A DNA stretch of 64,000 bases, from assembly GCA_013214945.1 (NCBI GenBank), contig JABSRT010000014.1, positions 1 to 64,000 of the forward strand, read 5' to 3'. The notes below the pieces were generated by a model. That model was not told the DNA's origin and did not search any database. It worked only from the letters and a program-made list of their open reading frames with translations. This DNA is from Gammaproteobacteria bacterium (lineage in GTDB: Bacteria > Pseudomonadota > Gammaproteobacteria > Enterobacterales > Psychrobiaceae). The translations under genes were made by a program, and so were the position numbers. Position 1 is the first letter of the stretch. Each line of letters starts with the position of its first letter. This document shows positions 2,072-50,290 of this stretch, in pieces.

Positions 2072-2881
2072 TTAAAACTCGAAAGTAGACCAAATTGGCG
2101 CGTGATCAGAGGGCTTTTCAATCGCTCGTAATTCGTAATCAACATCTGACTCGACGCAATACTGGCTTAAATTTGGCGTCGCTAAAATAACGTCAATGCG
2201 TAGGCCGCGGTTATCGTCAAAGCCACGAGAGCGGTAATCGAACCAGCTGTAACATTCGGTGCGTTCAGGATGAATTAAACGGAATGTATCATCAAGTCCC
2301 CAACCTTGCAGCGTCGCTAACCACTCGCGCTCTTCTGGTAGGAAGCTACACTTTTGGGTTTTTAACCATCGCTTGGCGTTGTCTGCACCAATGCCAATGT
2401 CTTTTTCGGCTGGCGAGATATTAATGTCACCCATCACAATAACGTTTTCGTCATTGGTGTGGTTAGTTTCAAGGTATTGCTGTAAATCTTGATAAAACTT
2501 TTCTTTGGCAGGAAATTTGGTTTCGTGCGTACGATTTTCACCTTGTGGAAAGTAACCATTTAACACGCGAACTTTTTGACCCGAGGTGCTGGTTACTGTG
2601 GCCATAATCATTCGGCGCTGGGCATCTTCTTCGTCAGTTTCAAAACCGTATTGCACGTCTTCAACGGCCAAATTGGTCATTAAGGCGACGCCATAGTGGC
2701 CTTTTTGGCCGTGGTAAAATACCTTGTAACCCATTGCTTCTACGGCTTCTAGCGGAAACTGCGGATTATCAACTTTAATTTCTTGCAGGCCGATTACGTC
2801 TGGCTGGTGTTTGTCGATCATCGCTTGTAATTGATGCAGGCGGGCACGAAGTCCATTGATATTAAATGAGATTACTTTCAT
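2072..2881 (-). CDS. xthA: Exodeoxyribonuclease III
   Basis: This is a 269-residue member of the Mg2+-dependent exonuclease/endonuclease/phosphatase fold. It cleaves DNA at abasic sites and degrades 3' ends during base excision repair in the cytoplasm. The opening [14 protein letters not shown], the metal-binding Glu in LQEIK near residue 35, the catalytic [13 protein letters not shown] around residue 150 and the final SDHAPIW are all present. The length matches E. coli XthA (268). The gene stands alone between the acetyltransferase gene and an HD-GYP gene. Confidence 0.95.
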
Positions 2882-2934
2882 GATAATTTGCTCTATTGGC
2901 TTATGTTTTTGCGGTCAGCTGCTATTTTAGCTGA

Positions 2935-4203
2935 TCAACCTAAGTAAAAGTTTATACTTTCACGCGGATTAAGATATTGTGCAATTTCTTGCGGCATGCT
3001 GGTCGGTGCCAGCACTTTGTCGATCTTAATCGATTCTTGTTTGGTATTAATAATGGCCGCTTCATTGCGTGGCACATCTGGATCATAAATTAAAACATTC
3101 GGAAATAACAAACGATTACTGTCGGCTGTGATCACAATGCCATACTGCTCGCTTGATAACTGCACAAATGTGCCCGGCGGGTAAATGCCCATGGTTTTTA
3201 TAAAGGCATTTAGCTGGGTTTGATCGAACAATTTCGCTTTATTTTTAAAGATAAAAGCAATTGCTTGCGCTCGACTGCGAGCCTTAGTGCCTGGCGCGCT
3301 CGGATGACACAACGACTCATAGAAATTGACCAGCGAGACAATTAAAGATAACGGGTGCAGTTGGCTAATAGTTTTACCTGTCGGATAACCGGTGCCATTA
3401 GCAAACTCATGATGCTCCACCACGATTTTTTTAACGGTGTCAGATATATCAGGTGATAAATTAAGATAATCCACCGAATAACTCGGGTGTTTTTCTATCA
3501 CGAATTTACGTTTACTGGGCGTAATATCAGTGCCAGTAAAAAACTGCTGGGGAATTTTCAACTTACCAATGTCGTGTAATAAACCGGCTATGCCCAGTTC
3601 AATCAGTTCGCTCTGCTCTAGACCTAATTGTTTGGCAATCATCATTGCTAGCATCGAGACACAAATGGCGTGTTGCTGCATTTGTGAATCGTCTCTGTCG
3701 TCGTCAACGAGGTGCAGCACAATATTATCTTTAACCAATAGCGCATCACTCATTGAATGAATGACTTCGGTTGCCTCAATCATTGCTTGTAATGGTCTAG
3801 ATTGAACTTTGTGGGTTAACGCGCGTACTTTACTCAAAGCAATATGATAGTCGGACTCACATTTTTTTATGGCCCGGCGATATGCTTGCATTTGTTCAAT
3901 TTGTTGGCTTTTTTGCTCGTTCATTGCCGTTAGTTCAGCGTCTAATTCCTGATCATTTGCCATCACTAAATCATCTTCAGGTGTGGCGGCAGACTCGGGT
4001 AGTGGCTTGGCTGAGCTTTTTGTTGGGATGGCCCACACATGCATAATATTTACTTTACGCAGTAAATCTATTTGCTTGATTGAGCTTATCTTAAACTGAT
4101 TAAACATAAACGGATGATCATTCCAAGCCACAGGCATCTCAATGTAGATGCCGGGCTGGAGCCGCTCAATGGCTAATTTTATCCGTTTGTGATCTGATAA
4201 CAT
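2935..4203 (-). CDS. HD-GYP domain cyclic di-GMP phosphodiesterase with DUF3391
   Basis: This 422-residue protein has an N-terminal DUF3391 region (about residues 1-130), then a coiled linker, then an HD-GYP domain (about 170-340). The metal-binding HDIGK, the second histidine pair VEHHE and the GTGYP motif are intact, so it should hydrolyse cyclic di-GMP and lower its level in the cell. No membrane segment is visible, so it is probably cytosolic. Family members with this layout regulate motility and biofilm formation. It has its own ATG start and is not obviously in an operon with either neighbour. Confidence 0.9.
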   Translation of the reverse strand: MLSDHKRIKLAIERLQPGIYIEMPVAWNDHPFMFNQFKISSIKQIDLLRKVNIMHVWAIPTKSSAKPLPESAATPEDDLVMANDQELDAELTAMNEQKSQQIEQMQAYRRAIKKCESDYHIALSKVRALTHKVQSRPLQAMIEATEVIHSMSDALLVKDNIVLHLVDDDRDDSQMQQHAICVSMLAMMIAKQLGLEQSELIELGIAGLLHDIGKLKIPQQFFTGTDITPSKRKFVIEKHPSYSVDYLNLSPDISDTVKKIVVEHHEFANGTGYPTGKTISQLHPLSLIVSLVNFYESLCHPSAPGTKARSRAQAIAFIFKNKAKLFDQTQLNAFIKTMGIYPPGTFVQLSSEQYGIVITADSNRLLFPNVLIYDPDVPRNEAAIINTKQESIKIDKVLAPTSMPQEIAQYLNPRESINFYLG

Positions 4204-42497: not shown

Positions 42498-42596
42498 TTT
42501 ACTTCGTTTCGTTATATTCATTGGCTACCTCATTATCAGCGTGAGCAAGATAGCCAATTCGATTTACTTGAGCAATTAGGCCACGGTGATGAGTAG
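42498..42596 (+). pseudogene. Tail of a gene overlapping the IS91 transposase, possibly its tyrosine recombinase partner
   Basis: About 30 codons (FRYIHWLPHYQREQDSQFDL and a short rest) run into a TAG that overlaps the transposase start as ATGAGTAG. Many IS91-type elements carry a tyrosine recombinase-like gene coupled in this way, and this piece looks like its C-terminus. The frame is closed upstream by a TAG at 42471, so the rest is missing. That it is the recombinase is inference. Confidence 0.5.
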
Positions 42597-43713
42597 CGGT
42601 GCCTTTAAACACATTATCGAGGATGGGCTGATTAATTTAGATTCGTCGTCAGTATCACCGCGTCAATGGCAGGTCTTGCACCATCTGAAAGCTTGCCGTA
42701 CCAGTGCATTGGGCACTTATCAATGGCACAGCGACCACTGCGAGAAAGATACACAATGGTACTGCTCTTGCCGTGACAGACATTGTCCTGTCTGCCAAGG
42801 GCAAGCGCGGGAGCAATGGGTTAATGCGCGAGAAAAGGACATGTTGCCATTAACCTATCATCACTTGGTATTTACCTTACCGCATCAATTTAATGGCTGG
42901 GCAACGATGCACCCTAAGGTGATTTATGATGGGTTGTTTAAGGCTGTTTGGGCAACCTTAAGCGCCTTTGCTAATCCCCGGCACCACCTTGATGGCAAGC
43001 TGGGTATGATGTGCGTTTTACACACTTGGGGCCAGCAGCTCAATCGGCATATTCATTTACACTGTTTGATCCCTGGTGGGGTGCTCACATCAAATCAACG
43101 CTGGTGCAATGCACGGAAAGAAGGATACTTATTCCCAGTTAAAGCGTTGTCAGTTAAATATCGGGGCAAGATGCTGGCTTATTTATCTGAAATGAGTAAA
43201 GAGGGAGAATTGTTTCGTTTAACACCTGATGATGTCGTTCAAACATTGCATGCAGCTACGAAAAAACCGTGGGTTGTTTATAGTAAACCAGCCTTACAAC
43301 ATGCGAATACGGTGGTGAAATATTTAGCTCGTTATTGCAATCGTGTTGGTATTAGTGAAAGCCGATTGGCGTTAAACGATCAAGGGCAAGTTGCGCTAAA
43401 TTATTTGGATTATCGTTCCCGAGACCGCAAAACCATGCATTGTTCGACCAGTGAATTGTTACGACGCTTCTTGCTGCATGTGTTACCTAAAGGGTTTATG
43501 AGGCTGCGTTATTACGGTTTTTTGGCTAATTCAGTGAGGCGAAAATCATTAGTGGTTATACGCGATAGTTTAGCTCTACCAGCTGTGATAGATAAAAATG
43601 AGGTGACCAGCGATGAAATTGGTCCTGTTTGCCCGCATTGCCATCACTCAGGCATGAAGTTAATTAATCTAGTATTGCCAGCTCGCTTGGGGAGGGTGAA
43701 ACGAACGAGATAG
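42589..43713 (+). CDS. IS91 family transposase (HUH/Y type)
   Basis: This 374-residue rolling-circle transposase has an N-terminal zinc-binding region (CEKDTQWYCSCRDRHCPVCQ), the HUH motif in NRHIHLHCLIPGG near residue 155, the Tyr region VVKYLARYCNRVGIS near residue 245, the LRYYGFLANS block, and a C-terminal CPHCHHSGM zinc ribbon. It nicks one strand of DNA and replicates out through the neighbouring sequence, so such elements can carry adjacent genes with them. ATG at 42589 is chosen; a GTG precedes it. The element's terminal sequences were not identified. Confidence 0.9.
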   Translation: MSSGAFKHIIEDGLINLDSSSVSPRQWQVLHHLKACRTSALGTYQWHSDHCEKDTQWYCSCRDRHCPVCQGQAREQWVNAREKDMLPLTYHHLVFTLPHQFNGWATMHPKVIYDGLFKAVWATLSAFANPRHHLDGKLGMMCVLHTWGQQLNRHIHLHCLIPGGVLTSNQRWCNARKEGYLFPVKALSVKYRGKMLAYLSEMSKEGELFRLTPDDVVQTLHAATKKPWVVYSKPALQHANTVVKYLARYCNRVGISESRLALNDQGQVALNYLDYRSRDRKTMHCSTSELLRRFLLHVLPKGFMRLRYYGFLANSVRRKSLVVIRDSLALPAVIDKNEVTSDEIGPVCPHCHHSGMKLINLVLPARLGRVKRTR

Positions 43714-44015: not shown

Positions 44016-44624
44016 TTGGAAGAGTTCAATACAGGAAAAAGGGTCGCTTTCGATGAGTTCAAATTGTTCTATGAATCAGCAGAAAAAGTAACCGATAGAC
44101 GCCATTCAGCTAACAGATGGAATTATTCAATTTGCATAGCAATTTTAGGCGCCATTGCCGCAATAATAAGCTGGAGTCTGGGCAAGCCTGCCTTTCTAAT
44201 AACTGGCATCGTTAGTGTCGTATTACTGGCGGGAATGGCTGCTCTATACTGTACGCTTTGGATTGGTCAAATCAGGGATTTTAAAGAGCTCAATAATGCC
44301 AAATTCGCTGTAATCAATGAGATGGCAAGATTCGTATCGTTTGGTGATGGGAATAATGAAAATTTGATTTCCTATAAGCCATTTGAAAAAGAATGGGATG
44401 CTCTGACTAAAGCTAAAATTGCGGAAGAAGTTAAAAGTATAAACATCGTTGCACTGAAATCCTCACACATTGAATATTTAATCCCTAAAGCATTTCGAGC
44501 TTTATTCGTCCTAATTGTATTGGCTGTTCCATTGGAAGGGTGGCGAAACTACGAATCAATATCGAAAATACAGTCTACGCCATCGCCAATTGTTAAAGCT
44601 GAAATCCAGGAGGCTAAAAAATAG
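44016..44624 (+). CDS. RipA-like multi-pass membrane protein
   Basis: This 202-residue protein starts at TTG with GGAG about 10 bases upstream. It has two close membrane helices (about residues 45-64 and 68-90) and a third near 164-182, with a conserved cytosolic core (FKELNNAKFAVINEMA and PFEKEWDAL). That core matches the RipA family of octameric inner-membrane proteins as I remember it. It overlaps the next gene by one base (TAGTG) and shares a cassette with it. A membrane protein paired with a TIR-like enzyme fits an effector/sensor pair of a defence system, but this is inference. Confidence 0.7.
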   Translation: MEEFNTGKRVAFDEFKLFYESAEKVTDRRHSANRWNYSICIAILGAIAAIISWSLGKPAFLITGIVSVVLLAGMAALYCTLWIGQIRDFKELNNAKFAVINEMARFVSFGDGNNENLISYKPFEKEWDALTKAKIAEEVKSINIVALKSSHIEYLIPKAFRALFVLIVLAVPLEGWRNYESISKIQSTPSPIVKAEIQEAKK

Positions 44625-45013
44625 TGTTTTTCCATGTTGTTATGCCTATAGGCCCAAACCCGAATAAAGATAAGTGTCAAAAATTGATATCTGATGTTGC
44701 ACATGATCACGGGTTGCGCCCTCATTTTCCACGTTATGCAACAGAAGATCCGGTTTTTAATCTTCAGTCAACGTTACAAGATCTGAGTAAATCTGAGTTT
44801 GTTCTTGTTGACTTGTCCCTTGAAAGACCTAGCTGTTACTACGAACTCGGGCTTGCGGAAGCACTTGGGAAGCCGGTGTATTTGATAGCAATTGAAGGTA
44901 CAGATATACACCAAACAGCATCTAGAAAATTGGTTAGGTTTTATAAAAACAACGATGATCTTGTTGATTTAGTTCGTGATATTTTATCTGGAGCGGTGGG
45001 TGAAAATGGCTAA
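44624..45013 (+). CDS. Nucleoside 2-deoxyribosyltransferase/TIR-like enzyme
   Basis: This 129-residue protein begins at GTG with a strong AGGAGG site 11 bases before it. It has a Rossmann-like fold with VLVDLSLERPSCYYELGLAE near residue 70, where the Glu of YELG matches the catalytic Glu of NDT and TIR NAD-cleaving enzymes, then GKPVYLIAIEG. I expect cleavage of a nucleoside or NAD-type N-glycosidic bond. Its TAA stop lies within the left core of the following attC site, as in true integron cassettes. It is coupled to the RipA-like membrane protein. Confidence 0.75.
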   Translation: MFFHVVMPIGPNPNKDKCQKLISDVAHDHGLRPHFPRYATEDPVFNLQSTLQDLSKSEFVLVDLSLERPSCYYELGLAEALGKPVYLIAIEGTDIHQTASRKLVRFYKNNDDLVDLVRDILSGAVGENG

Positions 45014-45097
45014 CAAGGCAATGAAATTGACGCGCCTAAGCGTGTCTCTCACTTCGTTCGTTTACACTAATGCACGCAATTTATTGCAGCGTTATGT
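45008..45097 (+). other. Integron attC-like recombination site 2
   Basis: The 90-base site runs from GGCTAAC to GTTATGT. Its arms (GGCAATGAAATTGACGCG on the left; GCACGCAATTTATTGCAGC on the right) pair with two unpaired bases (G and A) in the left arm only, the extrahelical bases that mark attC sites. A second inner pairing (GTGT/ACAC) lies in the loop. The left core GGCTAAC is the exact complement of GTTAGCC at the right end of site 1, as expected if 43982-45091 was once a free circular cassette. Confidence 0.82.
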
Positions 45098-45129
45098 GTT
45101 TACCAATTTCTCAACAAATGGAGTTTTAA

Positions 45130-45558
45130 ATGAGTACTAAACAAATTCACGTATTTATCAGTCATGCCTGGGCGCACTCAGATCACTACGATACACTATC
45201 AGATTGGATCTTCGAGCAATCTTGGAGCGCCGGCCAAGCTTCACTTAATTTTCACAATTACTCTGTTCCGAAAGATGACCCAATTCATGATGCCGATGAT
45301 GATAAACAATTGAAAGATGCTTTATATAATCAAATCTCAAGAAGCCATGTAATCGTAATACCAATGGGTATGTATGCGAACTATAGCAAGTGGATTCAAA
45401 AAGAGCTTGATGGGGCTGCTGAATACGAAAAACCAATTTTAGCTGTAAACCCTTGGGCTCAAAAGCGAAAATCTAGTGTTGTAGGTGATGCTTCAAATAA
45501 AAAAGTCGGCTGGAATAGTAAGTCCGTAGTTGGCGGTATTTGGGAATTATATAAGTAG
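45130..45558 (+). CDS. ThsB-like TIR-domain protein (DUF1863 type)
   Basis: This 142-residue protein is a single TIR-like domain of the MTH538/DUF1863 group, to which ThsB of Thoeris belongs. It opens with HVFISHAWAHSD, carries FHNYSVPKDDP (the conserved NYS/DYS stretch), and SKWIQKELDGA with the putative catalytic Glu near residue 91, then KPILAVNPWAQ. ThsB proteins make a NAD-derived signal on phage infection. No ThsA (SIR2/SLOG) partner is in the window. It begins 33 bases after attC site 2 and may be a second cassette that has lost its own attC. Confidence 0.85.
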   Translation: MSTKQIHVFISHAWAHSDHYDTLSDWIFEQSWSAGQASLNFHNYSVPKDDPIHDADDDKQLKDALYNQISRSHVIVIPMGMYANYSKWIQKELDGAAEYEKPILAVNPWAQKRKSSVVGDASNKKVGWNSKSVVGGIWELYK

Positions 45559-45760: not shown

Positions 45761-47074
45761 TCATAATTTAAGATTAAATTCAACAACCAGTTTATGTGTT
45801 ATATCTGATGGAACACTAAGAACTCCAAGTAACCGTTCTAGCTGAGTTGCAGTAGACTGAATACTTCCTGTTTCATGCTGATGAGCAACACGCGCAGCAT
45901 GATATAAATTCACAGATTGTTCCCAGTCACCTTTAATTAAAAGAGCTTCTGGTTCAGTAACACGCTCCCAATAATCATGAGATGGTCTTCCATCACGTTC
46001 ACTATCCATTTCTTTCAGTTGTTCTAGCACCTTATCGGCTAAGGCTATTGCCTCATCCATTTCACCTAACAGGACTGATTTAGAGGCTGCGTTTATCCCT
46101 GTGTATGTATCAGAGGGGACTTTGCTAAAGCCCTCTTTGTAAAGATTTCGTGAATGTTCCAATGCATCGCGCGCGCCTGATATATTATTAATTTTTTTCC
46201 GATGCTCCCATAAATCTGCCCATACTGCTGCAAGAATCCCTAATGTTTCGGTATCACGATGACCTTTTTCGAGCAACAGATTTAACTCATAAGCAGCGTT
46301 ATCGAGCTTACCTGCTCGTCGTAGTGCAAGCCCATATAATTGTTGAAGTCGAACCGAATTTGGAAATGTCTTTAAAGCGAACTCTGCCATCTGGATTGAC
46401 TCTTGATACTGTTTGCCACGAATAAGTAGATCAATTGCAACACCTGATAATGTTGCTGAGGAAGTATATGCAGGTTCGTTACTTACAATGCGTTCCTTAA
46501 TTTTGTCAAATAGCTGAGCTTTTGCCATTGCTCGAAGTTTTATTGGCTCTTCAGTCATAGATTTTTCGAATTCCATGACATGTCTGACAGCCGTAGTACT
46601 AAGTGCTTTTCCTGCCAACCCGCAAGTTAACCTGACAAGGTCTGCGCCCATGGGACCATCAACGTATTCAGAGAAATCAAGATAGAGTTGCCCACCCTGA
46701 AGCCCTGGGGGTTTTTGCCCATCTAATGATGCAACAACAAAGAAAAACGGAGAATCAGTACCTATAGTTTCATTCTTTTTGTGCATCATGGAATCTAGCT
46801 CGGCCTCTACCCATTGGGAATCAGCAGTATTTTGAGACCAGATCAAGACCCCACTAGCACTACTATCAAGATTTTTACCAAGTTGTGAGGCTAACCCCTT
46901 TCCTGGTACAAGAACAAATTGGTCAAGAAATACAGTATAACCACACTGTGTTAACATGTCGTACAATGAAATAGCCCAAATCCGATCTAAAGAACGATAG
47001 GAAATAAAAACATCCCACTTAAAGTTTTCCGGCCGTGGTCGAGGTAATTCGCAGTGCTCAATCCAGTAATTCAT
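45761..47074 (-). CDS. TIR domain protein with TPR / TRAFs-binding-like C-terminus
   Basis: This 437-residue protein has an N-terminal TIR domain (about residues 15-165): WDVFISYRSLDRIWA, LDQFVLVPGKG, and QWVEAELDSMM with the putative catalytic Glu near residue 90. The rest (about 180-437) is alpha-helical with TPR-like units and the stretch SDTYTGINAASKSVLLGE, resembling the MAP3K TRAFs-binding (DUF4071) region often joined to bacterial TIRs. It is the last gene of the operon, 11 bases after the SLATT gene. It could be an NAD-degrading effector or a scaffold; this is inferred from the domain makeup. Confidence 0.85.
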   Translation of the reverse strand: MNYWIEHCELPRPRPENFKWDVFISYRSLDRIWAISLYDMLTQCGYTVFLDQFVLVPGKGLASQLGKNLDSSASGVLIWSQNTADSQWVEAELDSMMHKKNETIGTDSPFFFVVASLDGQKPPGLQGGQLYLDFSEYVDGPMGADLVRLTCGLAGKALSTTAVRHVMEFEKSMTEEPIKLRAMAKAQLFDKIKERIVSNEPAYTSSATLSGVAIDLLIRGKQYQESIQMAEFALKTFPNSVRLQQLYGLALRRAGKLDNAAYELNLLLEKGHRDTETLGILAAVWADLWEHRKKINNISGARDALEHSRNLYKEGFSKVPSDTYTGINAASKSVLLGEMDEAIALADKVLEQLKEMDSERDGRPSHDYWERVTEPEALLIKGDWEQSVNLYHAARVAHQHETGSIQSTATQLERLLGVLSVPSDITHKLVVEFNLKL

Positions 47075-47085
47075 GCAATATCTCT

Positions 47086-47523
47086 CTATCGTTTGTTCTG
47101 GTCATCAGGGGTTTTAGCTATATATTTTCCCCAATCGGAGTTTTCTTTAGATATTATTGACTCAATATCATTTACAAATATATCAAATGAATCATCGTCC
47201 TTGTAAGGAGTAGAACTCGTCAAGAAAAGGTGTTTTAAATGTTTTAACGTTTCACAAGTTGTACGATAATTAATCCAACGCTCTTGATATTTACATAAAG
47301 ATAATAAAGCTGTTGCACATGTAACTGCCACACCCAATAACGCGGTAATCCATTCGGAATAATTTATATCATCAGAAAAACCTGAAACCAGAGGGATTAT
47401 AGCCCCGGAAATAATTTGAATGACAGATAAGCCCTTATACATACTTTGACTAGATTTGCTTTTAGTGTCATAGAATGCAATTTGATCATCTACTCTTTTG
47501 TTAGTGTACTGCTCAGGATTCAT
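47086..47523 (-). CDS. SLATT domain (DUF4231) membrane protein
   Basis: This 145-residue protein has two membrane helices (about residues 33-48 and 60-78) between helical ends. The opening YTNKRVDDQIAFYDTKSKSSQ and the segment KYQERWINYRTTCETLKHLK after the second helix match DUF4231, a branch of the SLATT domains. SLATT proteins are predicted pore-forming effectors in nucleotide-signal-dependent immunity. The start directly follows the stop of the TIR gene with no gap, so the two are translationally coupled. Confidence 0.85.
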   Translation of the reverse strand: MNPEQYTNKRVDDQIAFYDTKSKSSQSMYKGLSVIQIISGAIIPLVSGFSDDINYSEWITALLGVAVTCATALLSLCKYQERWINYRTTCETLKHLKHLFLTSSTPYKDDDSFDIFVNDIESIISKENSDWGKYIAKTPDDQNKR

Positions 47524-48024
47524 CTATCTCACCATTGATGCTTTGTTCACAGCAGCCATTATTGCATCATGATTCCATTGAACTGTTGAGCTAACATTAT
47601 CGCTAATATAGGAAGGTGTATTAGCGGGAGGAGTATTGCCTTTATGCACTGCGATAACTCCCTTTCCCATTTTTATACTTTGCTCAACTTCCCATTTAAC
47701 CCATTTACTCTTAATACTTTTATCAGATAAATAAACCATAGTGACCGATGTGTTTTTTATTTTTTCGCGAATTTTTCGTTTAATATAATCAGAATCTTCA
47801 CTATCAAAAGCCTTTTTTACTGAGTAATCAGAAAATTCTAAATCACTATTGTCGTTTTTTGACTGACCACGTAATAAATTTACTTCATTCATATCTTCAT
47901 GTGAAAAACTTATAAAGACATTTCGGGTTTTCATATTTCCCGCCTGTTCAATTTTTTCTTTCGCCTTTTGCTCCAACTGACTCTTATCAGTAGGAGAAAA
48001 ACCGAAGCCACCACCACCGCCCAT
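47524..48024 (-). CDS. TIR-like (DUF1863) protein with N-terminal polyglycine (M-G-G-G-G-G)
   Basis: The true start is the ATG at 48024, giving 166 residues: TAAGGAG overlaps the upstream stop and ends 6 bases before it. A longer in-frame form from 48087 would read through the end of the QueC-like gene and is rejected. The protein opens MGGGGGFGFSPTDKSQ, then a short helix, then a ThsB-like TIR fold: NVFISFSHEDMNE, LEFSDYSVKKAF and SKWVKWEVEQ with the putative catalytic Glu near residue 111. The bare glycine N-terminus next to a QueC-like enzyme suggests N-terminal conjugation of a deazaguanine. It takes the position a CD-NTase would hold in type IV CBASS. Confidence 0.88.
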   Translation of the reverse strand: MGGGGGFGFSPTDKSQLEQKAKEKIEQAGNMKTRNVFISFSHEDMNEVNLLRGQSKNDNSDLEFSDYSVKKAFDSEDSDYIKRKIREKIKNTSVTMVYLSDKSIKSKWVKWEVEQSIKMGKGVIAVHKGNTPPANTPSYISDNVSSTVQWNHDAIMAAVNKASMVR

Positions 48025-48034
48025 ATCAAGCTCC

Positions 48035-48616
48035 TTAATTGTTAAATTCCATACAAGAAATACAAGTGCCACAAGGTGTTTCGCCACCTACATGGCACGA
48101 ATATGACGATATAATCCCTCTTTCCTTAGCAAGTTGGATGACATCTTTTTTATAAAAGTCCCGTAAAGGCGTAATTATCTCTATTTTTCTTCCAAGTGAT
48201 TTTGATATTGCATATTCCGCAGAAAAAAGAAAATCATCTGTTTGGTCAGGAAAAATTGCTGTTTCTTCTCTAAGGAGCCCTATTGAAACAGAAGAGCACT
48301 CATTTTGAACAGCGAAAGAGCTTGCCATTAGCAACAGCATCATATTTCGGCCAGGTAAAAATGCCTCATCAACCACATTTTTAGTTGGGTCTGTCAGACC
48401 TGAAGATATAACCTTACCAAAGCCGCTTATATCCATAATTTGGGGCTGTCTCAGCCCAAATTGTTTAGTATGTTTTATTGCTCCTTGTAACTCACGCTCC
48501 AAATTAATTTGTCCGTAATTAATGAACAATGGCAATTGATTCTGGCCAACTTCTTGAGCTAAAACAGTCATCAGACAAGAATCTAATCCACCGGATAGTA
48601 ATGTTACTATGCTCAT
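48035..48616 (-). CDS. QueC-like PP-loop enzyme (Cap9-like, type IV CBASS)
   Basis: QueC makes 7-cyano-7-deazaguanine from the carboxy form using ATP. This 193-residue relative keeps the PP-loop LLSGGLDS at residues 6-13, FLPGRNMMLLLMA near residue 95, and the C-terminal zinc site C..GGETPCGTCISC. It is shorter than E. coli QueC (231). The start at 48616 forms an ATGA overlap with the glycosylase gene, with GAAGG upstream; 13 residues of the longer frame are dropped. Context (TGT-like, OGG-like) makes it the Cap9-type defence paralogue rather than the queuosine enzyme. Confidence 0.9.
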   Translation of the reverse strand: MSIVTLLSGGLDSCLMTVLAQEVGQNQLPLFINYGQINLERELQGAIKHTKQFGLRQPQIMDISGFGKVISSGLTDPTKNVVDEAFLPGRNMMLLLMASSFAVQNECSSVSIGLLREETAIFPDQTDDFLFSAEYAISKSLGRKIEIITPLRDFYKKDVIQLAKERGIISSYSCHVGGETPCGTCISCMEFNN

Positions 48617-49314
48617 GTCACAACCTTCATATTTAACGCCCTCATTACGAACCACATTGCCTGATCGACAACAGAAACTGAATACTTAAATTTACGTACT
48701 ATTGATATAAAACGAATTTCCACTTCTTCATATTTATCGATACGAGCAAGCTTGGATATATTTAAATGTTTATCGCCAGCAATCTCCATATAACGAATTA
48801 TATGCCTATCAATAATTGCCACTTCATCCGTATAGCCGATATTTTTAAGAAAATGACTTGCTTGCTTGGGGCCTATACCTGGACAAATACGAATCAACTC
48901 TCTCCTTAATGCAAAGGAACCTAGATCTAAACTAACTAATTTCTTTAAAGAGCCATAGTCGGAGTAAATGTTAAATAATGATTGTGATATGCAATTTGCA
49001 CCACGTGCAGGATACCTATATCGCTTATACATTTTATCAGTTGTTTTTGCGTGTACAGGCATAGTTAAAAATTGTTGTATGGCAGAACTAGATTCATTTT
49101 TTAATACCATTTTTTTAGATACCAATCTAGAACGCCTAATACCTGCGGCATAAGCAACAGCAATTTCATATCTAACTCCGCTTCCTAGTATGCAAATTAA
49201 TAACTCATAAACAAGTTGTGTCTCTGTCATCTCAGCAACACTAATACGTTTGACGAGTTGATTTACATCACTGCATAAATTATTGACTGCATGATCAATT
49301 TGCCATAATTTCAT
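48613..49314 (-). CDS. OGG-like HhH-GPD DNA glycosylase family protein (Cap11-like)
   Basis: This 233-residue protein resembles the Ogg2/AGOG branch of helix-hairpin-helix glycosylases. The hairpin ICPGIGPKQASHFLKNIGY has the catalytic Lys near residue 150, and the Asp lies in VAIIDRHIIRYM about 18 residues later, so both active-site residues are kept. The family removes damaged bases such as 8-oxoguanine from DNA; here the target may be a deazaguanine-linked or modified substrate (inference). The start at 49314 overlaps the end of the TGT-like gene by 20 bases and has GAGG upstream. Confidence 0.85.
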   Translation of the reverse strand: MKLWQIDHAVNNLCSDVNQLVKRISVAEMTETQLVYELLICILGSGVRYEIAVAYAAGIRRSRLVSKKMVLKNESSSAIQQFLTMPVHAKTTDKMYKRYRYPARGANCISQSLFNIYSDYGSLKKLVSLDLGSFALRRELIRICPGIGPKQASHFLKNIGYTDEVAIIDRHIIRYMEIAGDKHLNISKLARIDKYEEVEIRFISIVRKFKYSVSVVDQAMWFVMRALNMKVVT

Positions 49315-50290
49315 ATAAAGCCTCGTCGATTTTTATATCACTTGTTAATGCTGATGCAACAGTATCGAAAAATTGAGGGGGAAGGTAGTGTTGCAACATA
49401 ACTTCTATTTGATCCGTTTCTATAGTTTGTTGTAGATAGGGCATCCAATTTTTGTAAAATTCAAGGTTATGCATATAACAACTTGTGAAAAAATTTATAT
49501 CGGTGTTTTGCCCCCACTTACTTTGATGCTTATATAAATCCAATTGAAGCGGATGGTGAAGTGTTCCTTTTTCAAAATCAACGACTGTTTGACACCAATC
49601 AAGTCCATCAAACGAATCAGCTCCTGCAAAAGCATATAGCATCATAGATATAGGGTTACCAGTGCCAAGTATGTGTAATGTTTGATATTTGTCTAATGTA
49701 TTTAAAGAAGTTCGGATTTTTTTGATATTGAGAAGGATTTCTAAAACCCCTCTGCCTAGCTCTCTTTCCGGTATAGCGATTAATTTAGGCTTACAACTCT
49801 GACTAACCGCCATGCAGAGTGCTGGGTATTCAAGTGGATTTTTACAATGGATAATTGGCGATATATCTGATGTGCTAGCTTGTTTTATAGTTTTTTGGAT
49901 AGATGAAGTAATAATTGAAGAATTTTGTGTTTTTTGATTTAAGCAAAAATCATCAAAGCTAAATGCATATGAAACGTCATTTCTTTTTAACGTCTTTATA
50001 TAACGTTTTTTACACCACCGCTTTGAACGAGACCAAACCATTTCATAAAGGCCAGAGTCCCATAAAACTACCTGGCTCTGCTCTTTAGCTTTTTCTAAGG
50101 CCAACTGAAGCCGGCTATTATTCTGATTCTTATAAACATCAAAACAAGAAACCAAAAACTGAGGATAGTCACAAGCGACTAATAATTCAACATGATCAAT
50201 TACAGACCAATTGTTTTTTGAAACACCTGAAACCGAGGGGTAGAATATTGGGGTTGGTAACCCGCCAATTGTATTTTTTACTTTAACCAT
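49295..50290 (-). CDS. tRNA-guanine transglycosylase-like protein (Cap10-like)
   Basis: This 331-residue protein is a diverged TGT barrel. Recognisable pieces are VVLWDSGLYEM (TGT DSGGFQ region), IAIPERELGRG, and HILGTGNPISMMLYAFAGADSFDGLDW, where the Asp of FDG corresponds to the TGT nucleophile. The usual C-x-C-x2-C zinc site of TGT is not evident. TGTs swap guanine for a deazaguanine in tRNA; the type IV CBASS version Cap10 is thought to act on or bind a protein partner. It is the first gene of the operon, with AAAGGA before the ATG. Confidence 0.82.
   Translation of the reverse strand: MVKVKNTIGGLPTPIFYPSVSGVSKNNWSVIDHVELLVACDYPQFLVSCFDVYKNQNNSRLQLALEKAKEQSQVVLWDSGLYEMVWSRSKRWCKKRYIKTLKRNDVSYAFSFDDFCLNQKTQNSSIITSSIQKTIKQASTSDISPIIHCKNPLEYPALCMAVSQSCKPKLIAIPERELGRGVLEILLNIKKIRTSLNTLDKYQTLHILGTGNPISMMLYAFAGADSFDGLDWCQTVVDFEKGTLHHPLQLDLYKHQSKWGQNTDINFFTSCYMHNLEFYKNWMPYLQQTIETDQIEVMLQHYLPPQFFDTVASALTSDIKIDEALYEIMAN

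Follow-up and report, generated by a model that had tools for sequence, protein, structure and literature searches.

A candidate CD-NTase-free immune operon built on deazaguanylation of a TIR protein

In type IV CBASS (cyclic oligonucleotide-based antiphage signalling system), Cap9 joins 7-deazaguanine to the N-terminal glycine of a CD-NTase; defence depends on Cap9, on Cap10 and on the modification itself (PMC11996544; PMC13279940). This is so far the one system in which deazaguanylation has been shown experimentally; a second, qatABCD, has been proposed. Here we describe an operon in which relatives of the same enzymes keep company with a TIR protein. It lies at positions 47086 to 50290 of a 64,000-nucleotide stretch that we call the window: positions 1–64,000 of contig JABSRT010000014.1, from assembly GCA_013214945.1 of a Gammaproteobacteria bacterium (Psychrobiaceae). 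Our reading, to which we give a probability of about 0.68, is that deazaguanylation of the TIR protein is the basis of an immune operon that works without a CD-NTase. We knew of no TIR and QueC arrangement of this kind beforehand, and a literature search found no published description of the operon, although an earlier mention may exist. A term search of PMC13329287 found no mention of TIR.

The initial annotation of this DNA had described five tightly packed or overlapping genes, and these are confirmed on the minus strand: every frame is present, the families are as claimed, with Pfam, PADLOC and NCBIfam in agreement, and the junctions run from -20 to +10 nucleotides. Read from 50290 down to 47086, the order is TGT-like, HhH, QueC-like, TIR and SLATT, with gene ends that overlap or nearly touch. 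We refer to the first three as the trio. The features are as follows.

49295..50290, minus strand: Cap10-like (TGT-family) protein, 331 amino acids, the proposed reader of the NDG tag (PADLOC TGT 8.6e-25; PDB Cap10 9ntn)
48613..49314, minus strand: HhH-GPD/Ogg-like (Cap11-like) protein, 233 amino acids (Pfam Ogg-HhH 2.4e-20; PADLOC OGG 3.2e-5)
48035..48616, minus strand: Cap9-like (QueC-family) protein, 193 amino acids, the proposed ligase of 7-carboxy-7-deazaguanine (CDG) to the TIR (Pfam QueC 2.1e-35; PADLOC CBASS QueC 1.4e-21)
47524..48024, minus strand: ThsB-type TIR protein, 166 amino acids, N-terminus MGGGGGFGFSP, the proposed deazaguanylation client (Pfam ThsB_TIR, PF08937, 1.1e-22)
48001..48024, minus strand: codons for the TIR's N-terminal glycine tag, MGGGGGFG
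47086..47523, minus strand: SLATT_1/DUF4231 protein with two transmembrane segments, 145 amino acids, a proposed membrane effector (Pfam DUF4231 1.2e-26, SLATT_1 2.1e-15; NCBIfam SLATT_1 1.3e-37)
45761..47074, minus strand: TIR_2 and TPR-S protein, 437 amino acids, a probable sixth gene (effector or sensor; Pfam TIR_2 7.7e-18, TPR-S 6.3e-17)

The TGT-like and HhH genes overlap by 20 nucleotides, and the HhH and QueC-like genes share an ATGA, read directly from the sequence; the QueC-like start was corrected to ATG 48616. Ten nucleotides separate the QueC-like and TIR genes, and none separate TIR from SLATT. The sixth gene starts 11 nucleotides past the SLATT stop, a spacing that makes co-transcription with the unit probable, and it probably belongs to the operon. 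We place the TIR start at ATG 48024, with AAGGAG in front of it and ten bases downstream of the QueC-like stop; a mechanical list of open reading frames had GTG 48087, inside the QueC-like gene. From ATG 48024 the protein begins MGGGGGFGFSPTDKSQ (MGGGGGFGFS). Neither this glycine-rich start nor the sixth gene was part of the initial annotation.

It is the N-terminus of the TIR that suggests a tie between the operon and deazaguanylation. We compared 54 loci, made up of the window, four plasmid records and 49 loci from a TIR-alignment scan of 84,980 species genomes. (The scan gave 53 loci; L056, which has the trio and a broken TIR frame, and L060–L062, which have no trio, are excluded from counts of the 54 TIRs, and a locus on a viral contig, L063/L065, is not among them.) Fifty-two of the TIRs begin MGG, and two from Thermoplasmata begin MGATGGGGG and MTAGGGGG; clustering of the 54 at 70% identity leaves 19 groups, of which 18 have MGG and one has MGA. 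Glycine accounts for 54% of residues 2–10 as against 3.6% from residue 41 onwards. All four glycine codons occur at position 2 and again at position 3, from which it follows that selection acts on the amino acid. A Shine–Dalgarno-like motif, by a lenient pattern, stands before 53 of the 54 starts. Where an MG-type start existed it was the one selected, and annotators' starts agree in the four plasmid records checked. The tail ahead of the TIR fold is 28–42 residues long. In the predicted structure of the window protein, mean pLDDT (predicted local distance difference test) is 43, 56 and 50 for residues 1–10, 11–20 and 21–30, with a helix drawn at 12–29, and on this model the trio-linked TIR is predicted to expose an N-terminal glycine on a flexible tail.

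The tag is confined to trio-linked TIRs. As controls we took 15 ThsB-type TIRs with no trio profile match within about 3 kb. A glycine-rich tail is seen in none of them, and 14 do not begin Met-Gly; the starts of L091 and L092 are uncertain, L091 being a broken frame. We also considered whether MGG could be explained solely by overlap with the QueC-like frame, and rejected it: the TIR starts past or abuts the QueC-like stop in 36 of 53, the window included. The tagged N-terminus gives the trio a concrete proposed job, deazaguanylation of a protein at its N-terminus.

How does this compare with type IV CBASS? The two have in common Cap10-like and Cap9-like proteins, a partner tagged with MGG at its N-terminus, and SLATT-type effectors (in the Pseudanabaena locus, L067, through a weak SLATT_4 match), and the HhH protein may correspond to Cap11. 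The type IV CBASS CD-NTase of Pseudanabaena begins MGGSGGGFFSNSD, and its start MGGSGGGFFSNSDITKELREAEA is close in style to that of the window TIR, MGGGGGFGFSPTDKSQLEQKAKE, although CD-NTase and TIR are not homologous. Motifs given in PMC13279940 are MGGS for CBASS CD-NTases and MGTS for QatB. The operon differs in having no CD-NTase and a ThsB-type TIR as its tagged partner, and in the rhizobial records of the TIR system, which have a TIR-fused TGT-like protein and a PfkB-like gene upstream. Because it has no CD-NTase, it is not type IV CBASS.

That absence was looked for directly. A PF18144 search covered 50 carriers of the TIR system, whole genomes or plasmid records (L053, L055, L057 and L059 stand outside this set), and the same profile found the type IV CBASS genes of the Pseudanabaena plasmid as a positive control. 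There is no CD-NTase inside any of the 50 loci by this search, and none among the six window genes by Pfam. A CD-NTase just outside the unit, or in the same unit of relatives, had been named in advance as a discovery that would refute the initial annotation; it was rejected on these results. Could the operon still be a type IV CBASS that has decayed or been split, with its CD-NTase housed elsewhere in the genome? PF18144 does match somewhere in 13 of the 50, the source genome included (on contig C8; the locus is on C14). In five genomes the matching contig differs in length from the locus contig. The remaining matches sit on a different contig, past the point where the locus contig ends or, should the contig be shared, no less than 44 kb off. 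One of the two matches in G373 is on C192; at the same coordinates the locus contig encodes the QueC-like and TIR proteins. Set against this are the 37 with no match at all, the lack of any match within a locus, and a QueC-like clade and gene order that are ancient and common to several phyla. We find a split CBASS scarcely credible.

The arrangement is widespread and rigid. TGT-like, HhH, QueC-like and TIR genes are all present in 52 of the 54 loci, always in the same order and on the same strand, which makes it more than chance. That a TIR occupies the place of the CD-NTase, as first annotated, is conserved and no local accident. Profile matches number 53 for QueC-like, 53 for HhH and 52 for TGT-like; the two incomplete loci are L037, at a contig edge with no TGT-like gene, and L057, on a 4.2-kb contig with no trio by profile. 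Directly upstream of the MGGG-tagged TIR of L057 (1260-2144) we observed a 295-residue protein with a sub-threshold TGT match (0.0071), perhaps a divergent Cap10. Hosts span seven bacterial phyla (Pseudomonadota, Campylobacterota, Bacillota, Bacteroidota, Thermodesulfobacteriota, Minisyncoccota and Nitrospirota) and the archaeal Thermoplasmatota, and one viral contig (L063/L065) carries the system. A tblastn search of 72,556 plasmid records with the QueC-like protein found 13 at 52–54% identity, the next best being 32%, and the best TIR matches are the same 13 at 51–53%. In the four rhizobial plasmid records inspected the unit is present with a TIR domain fused N-terminal to the TGT-like protein (Pfam TIR_2 in L006), and a PfkB-like gene lies upstream of the fusion (Pfam-confirmed in L006, 2664-3812). 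PfkB-like openings were also seen in several genome loci.

With the PADLOC TGT profile, only the source genome matched among 369 genomes of the class; E. coli genomes gave no match, and the TIR was not found in any of the eight other species genomes of the source genus, so it was probably acquired horizontally. Its absence from these eight species, and the island-like character of the window region, would suit an alternative in which two independent defence modules, a TIR–SLATT pair and a deazaguanine trio, simply lie side by side. Such pairs do stand alone: ThsB-type TIR and DUF4231/SLATT genes are adjacent, with neither trio nor glycine tag, in the Staphylococcus phages X2 and SN8, a Streptococcus satellite phage and a Natronomonas plasmid (L077, L078, L079 and L068). 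Given their existence, the pair seems to be the older module and tagging a later addition. Two features speak against mere adjacency, namely that lone TIRs have no tag and that in 52 of 52 loci, whatever the phylum, the QueC-like gene adjoins the TIR gene, and we regard it as very improbable. Elsewhere in the window we observed a second cluster, on the plus strand at 44016-45558, with an 8xMP membrane protein, a Nuc_deoxyrib_tr-like protein and a ThsB-type TIR; a frame at 42586-43713 beside the defence genes is presumably a transposase.

Pfam's general TGT model matches the TGT-like protein weakly (5.9e-4, below cut-off), and a profile of the protein itself finds a single match among PDB sequences, Cap10 in 9ntn, at 1.8e-11. 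The predicted structure (mean pLDDT 89.4) has as its top Foldseek matches the two Cap10 chains of the 9ntn Cap10–CdnD/NDG complex, at a TM-score of 0.71, and PADLOC and Foldseek together place the protein, as modelled, in the remodelled TGT family of Cap10. A CBASS Cap10 query against the plasmid records found itself and only the 13 rhizobial records with the TIR system. Viral contigs scanned for relatives of CBASS Cap10 and Cap9 gave 0 and 1 loci, respectively, the one being L086. Among the 52 TGT-like frames, 41 exceed 450 amino acids, with start choice loose and few domain-tested.

The QueC-like protein matches Cap9 (PDB 9nto_B) at 2.1e-15 and scores 116.3 bits with NCBIfam, under the canonical QueC cut-off of 150.3. 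The motifs SGGxDS, Y/F-x-Q(x5)E, RN, aromatic-x-D, P-L(x4)K and the Cys set are kept in 49–53 of 53 proteins, and the catalytic letters in 52 or 53; the Cap9 signature for comparison is given in PMC13329287. At the YPDC-type motif an aromatic is kept (51 Phe, 2 Tyr), as is Asp in 53 of 53. By sequence, then, this appears to be a short QueC family with an intact catalytic core, as in Cap9. In a tree, a branch with support of 88/90 sets all 53 proteins apart from the other sequences included, which were one CBASS Cap9 (on a long branch), three proteins of another family and two sequences of QueC type. We rejected a canonical queuosine role: the protein falls below the equivalog cut-off and the source genome has another QueC (207.9 bits). 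Beside that canonical QueC it has QueE (333.5 bits, cut-off 200).

Membership of the trio in the normal queuosine or repair orthologue groups had been posed as a challenge to the initial annotation, and here the outcome is mixed: the TGT-like and QueC-like proteins showed no such membership, while the HhH protein, which resembles archaeal Ogg, may belong to such a group. The PDB relatives of the HhH profile are Ogg enzymes (3.5e-23), with the PADLOC OGG match being the weak one, and K150 and D169, which correspond to the Lys and Asp of the glycosylases, are kept in 53 of 53. One might imagine that the trio acts on nucleic acid, making or sensing 7-deazaguanine in DNA or tRNA, with the HhH protein excising modified phage bases and TIR and SLATT responding; all three families are of nucleic-acid ancestry. 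The structural comparison argues otherwise, since tRNA TGTs rank below protein-binding Cap10 (TMq 0.55–0.63, among the 50 matches listed), and action on nucleic acid would leave a glycine tag exclusive to trio-linked TIRs unexplained. We think this quite unlikely.

Turning to the TIR, the catalytic-type Glu112 is present in 54 of 54 and aligns with ThsB E85 (the chain-numbering offset was counted by hand), whose role is described in PMC10022894. PDB matches are 8fz9 and the ThsB 6lhy, so that a ThsB-type TIR domain is present, as in Thoeris. The differences from Thoeris are the glycine-tagged tail, the attached deazaguanine enzymes, and ThsA (SIR2-SLOG or macro-TM), which Pfam did not find in any of the six window genes; for this last reason the operon is not Thoeris as defined. 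Nor is it qatABCD. The two share a QueC-family enzyme and a partner with a flexible, Gly-starting N-terminus; QatC, though, is longer and has lost the canonical, substrate-recognising Tyr/Asp pair (PMC13279940), the operon has no QatA, QatB or QatD families, and its client is a TIR. PADLOC QatC gives only 0.066 for the QueC-like protein, with no Qat match in the other eight proteins scanned. By analogy, tagging probably proceeds as in type IV CBASS and the TIR enzyme probably works as in Thoeris, which would make the operon a new variant of deazaguanylation-based immunity.

What lies downstream is varied. The initial annotation had proposed a SLATT pore as effector; SLATT as the general effector is not supported, and as an obligatory partner we reject it: a gene with at least two predicted transmembrane segments directly follows the TIR in just 14 of 55 loci. 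A TPR-S-type opening does so in seven of 55 (one, L026, Pfam-tested). Pfam on chosen downstream genes found SLATT_3 and SLATT_1 (L012, L022), 8xMP (L058), TPR-S (L026) and TIR with TPR (L048). Taken as a whole, the initial interpretation is partly supported.

We infer every chemical and immune step of the following mechanism. Host QueE would supply CDG. Once the initiator Met had been removed, the Cap9-like enzyme would ligate CDG to the N-terminal glycine of the TIR, and the Cap10-like protein would bind the tagged tail and keep the TIR licensed within a complex. When a phage infects, the TIR might consume NAD+ (nicotinamide adenine dinucleotide) or make a NAD-derived signal, and the SLATT membrane protein and the TIR–TPR-S protein would execute growth arrest or death. 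The same anatomy would also serve a brake, in which the deazaguanylated N-terminus, held by the Cap10-like protein, silences a toxic TIR until infection (through loss of CDG, ATP or the complex, for example) frees it. A writer gene coupled so tightly upstream of the TIR, at -14 to +21 nucleotides, would fit an antitoxin-like role, and ThsB TIRs are reported inactive without a trigger (PMC10022894). In type IV CBASS, however, the modification is required for defence and not for silencing (PMC11996544), and because CBASS needs the tag we consider licensing the likelier role and a brake unlikely.

Several observations weigh against deazaguanylation of the TIR as we propose it. The MGG count may be flattered because MG-type starts were preferred; two archaeal TIRs break strict MGG, one with Thr at position 2; and one control TIR, L090, begins Met-Gly (MGLARTF), albeit directly on the TIR fold and without a tail. 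L057, on a short contig, has the tag and yet lacks a QueC-like gene there. By sequence, canonical QueC (2pg3, 1.7e-24) outscores Cap9 with the QueC-like profile, and canonical QueD is a sub-threshold match in the source genome (21.6 against 22.4 bits). We know of no proven role for the HhH protein in CBASS, and in the Pseudanabaena locus, which includes QueC, TGT and CD-NTase genes and one of SLATT type, no HhH profile match falls within about 5 kb. Finally, the effector is not uniform, for in 24 of 55 loci no same-strand gene directly follows the TIR.

A bolder idea is that deazaguanylation is a general immune licence code, in which a QueC-family writer is paired with a swappable Met-Gly client: CD-NTase, QatB, TIR or a small protein of Cupriavidus, Neotabrizicola and Proteus (MG[ST]SGS/MGSTGSGSF) beside QueC-like and PfkB-NDT genes. 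The tag would be a docking handle, read by a Cap10 that in many loci is fused to a second TIR, joining two TIRs into a NAD-using active site; composite TIR active sites are known. We offer this tentatively and would not bet on it. The small protein, of about 125–130 residues and with no Pfam match, begins MGSSGSGNFSDY, MGSTGSGSFSDY or MGSTGSGSFTDY (L066:3275-3652, L087:about 2796-3173 and L088:about 2789-3166) and precedes PfkB-NDT-like and QueC-like genes and one further gene. Judged by its sequence it may be a further client.

Our findings suggest that a rare deazaguanine protein tag also controls TIR-based immunity. If so, a third, TIR-based class of client would separate the modification from cyclic-nucleotide signalling and make testable how a nucleobase on a protein's first residue licenses an immune enzyme. 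TIR NADases would, moreover, be shown to be controlled in a new way.

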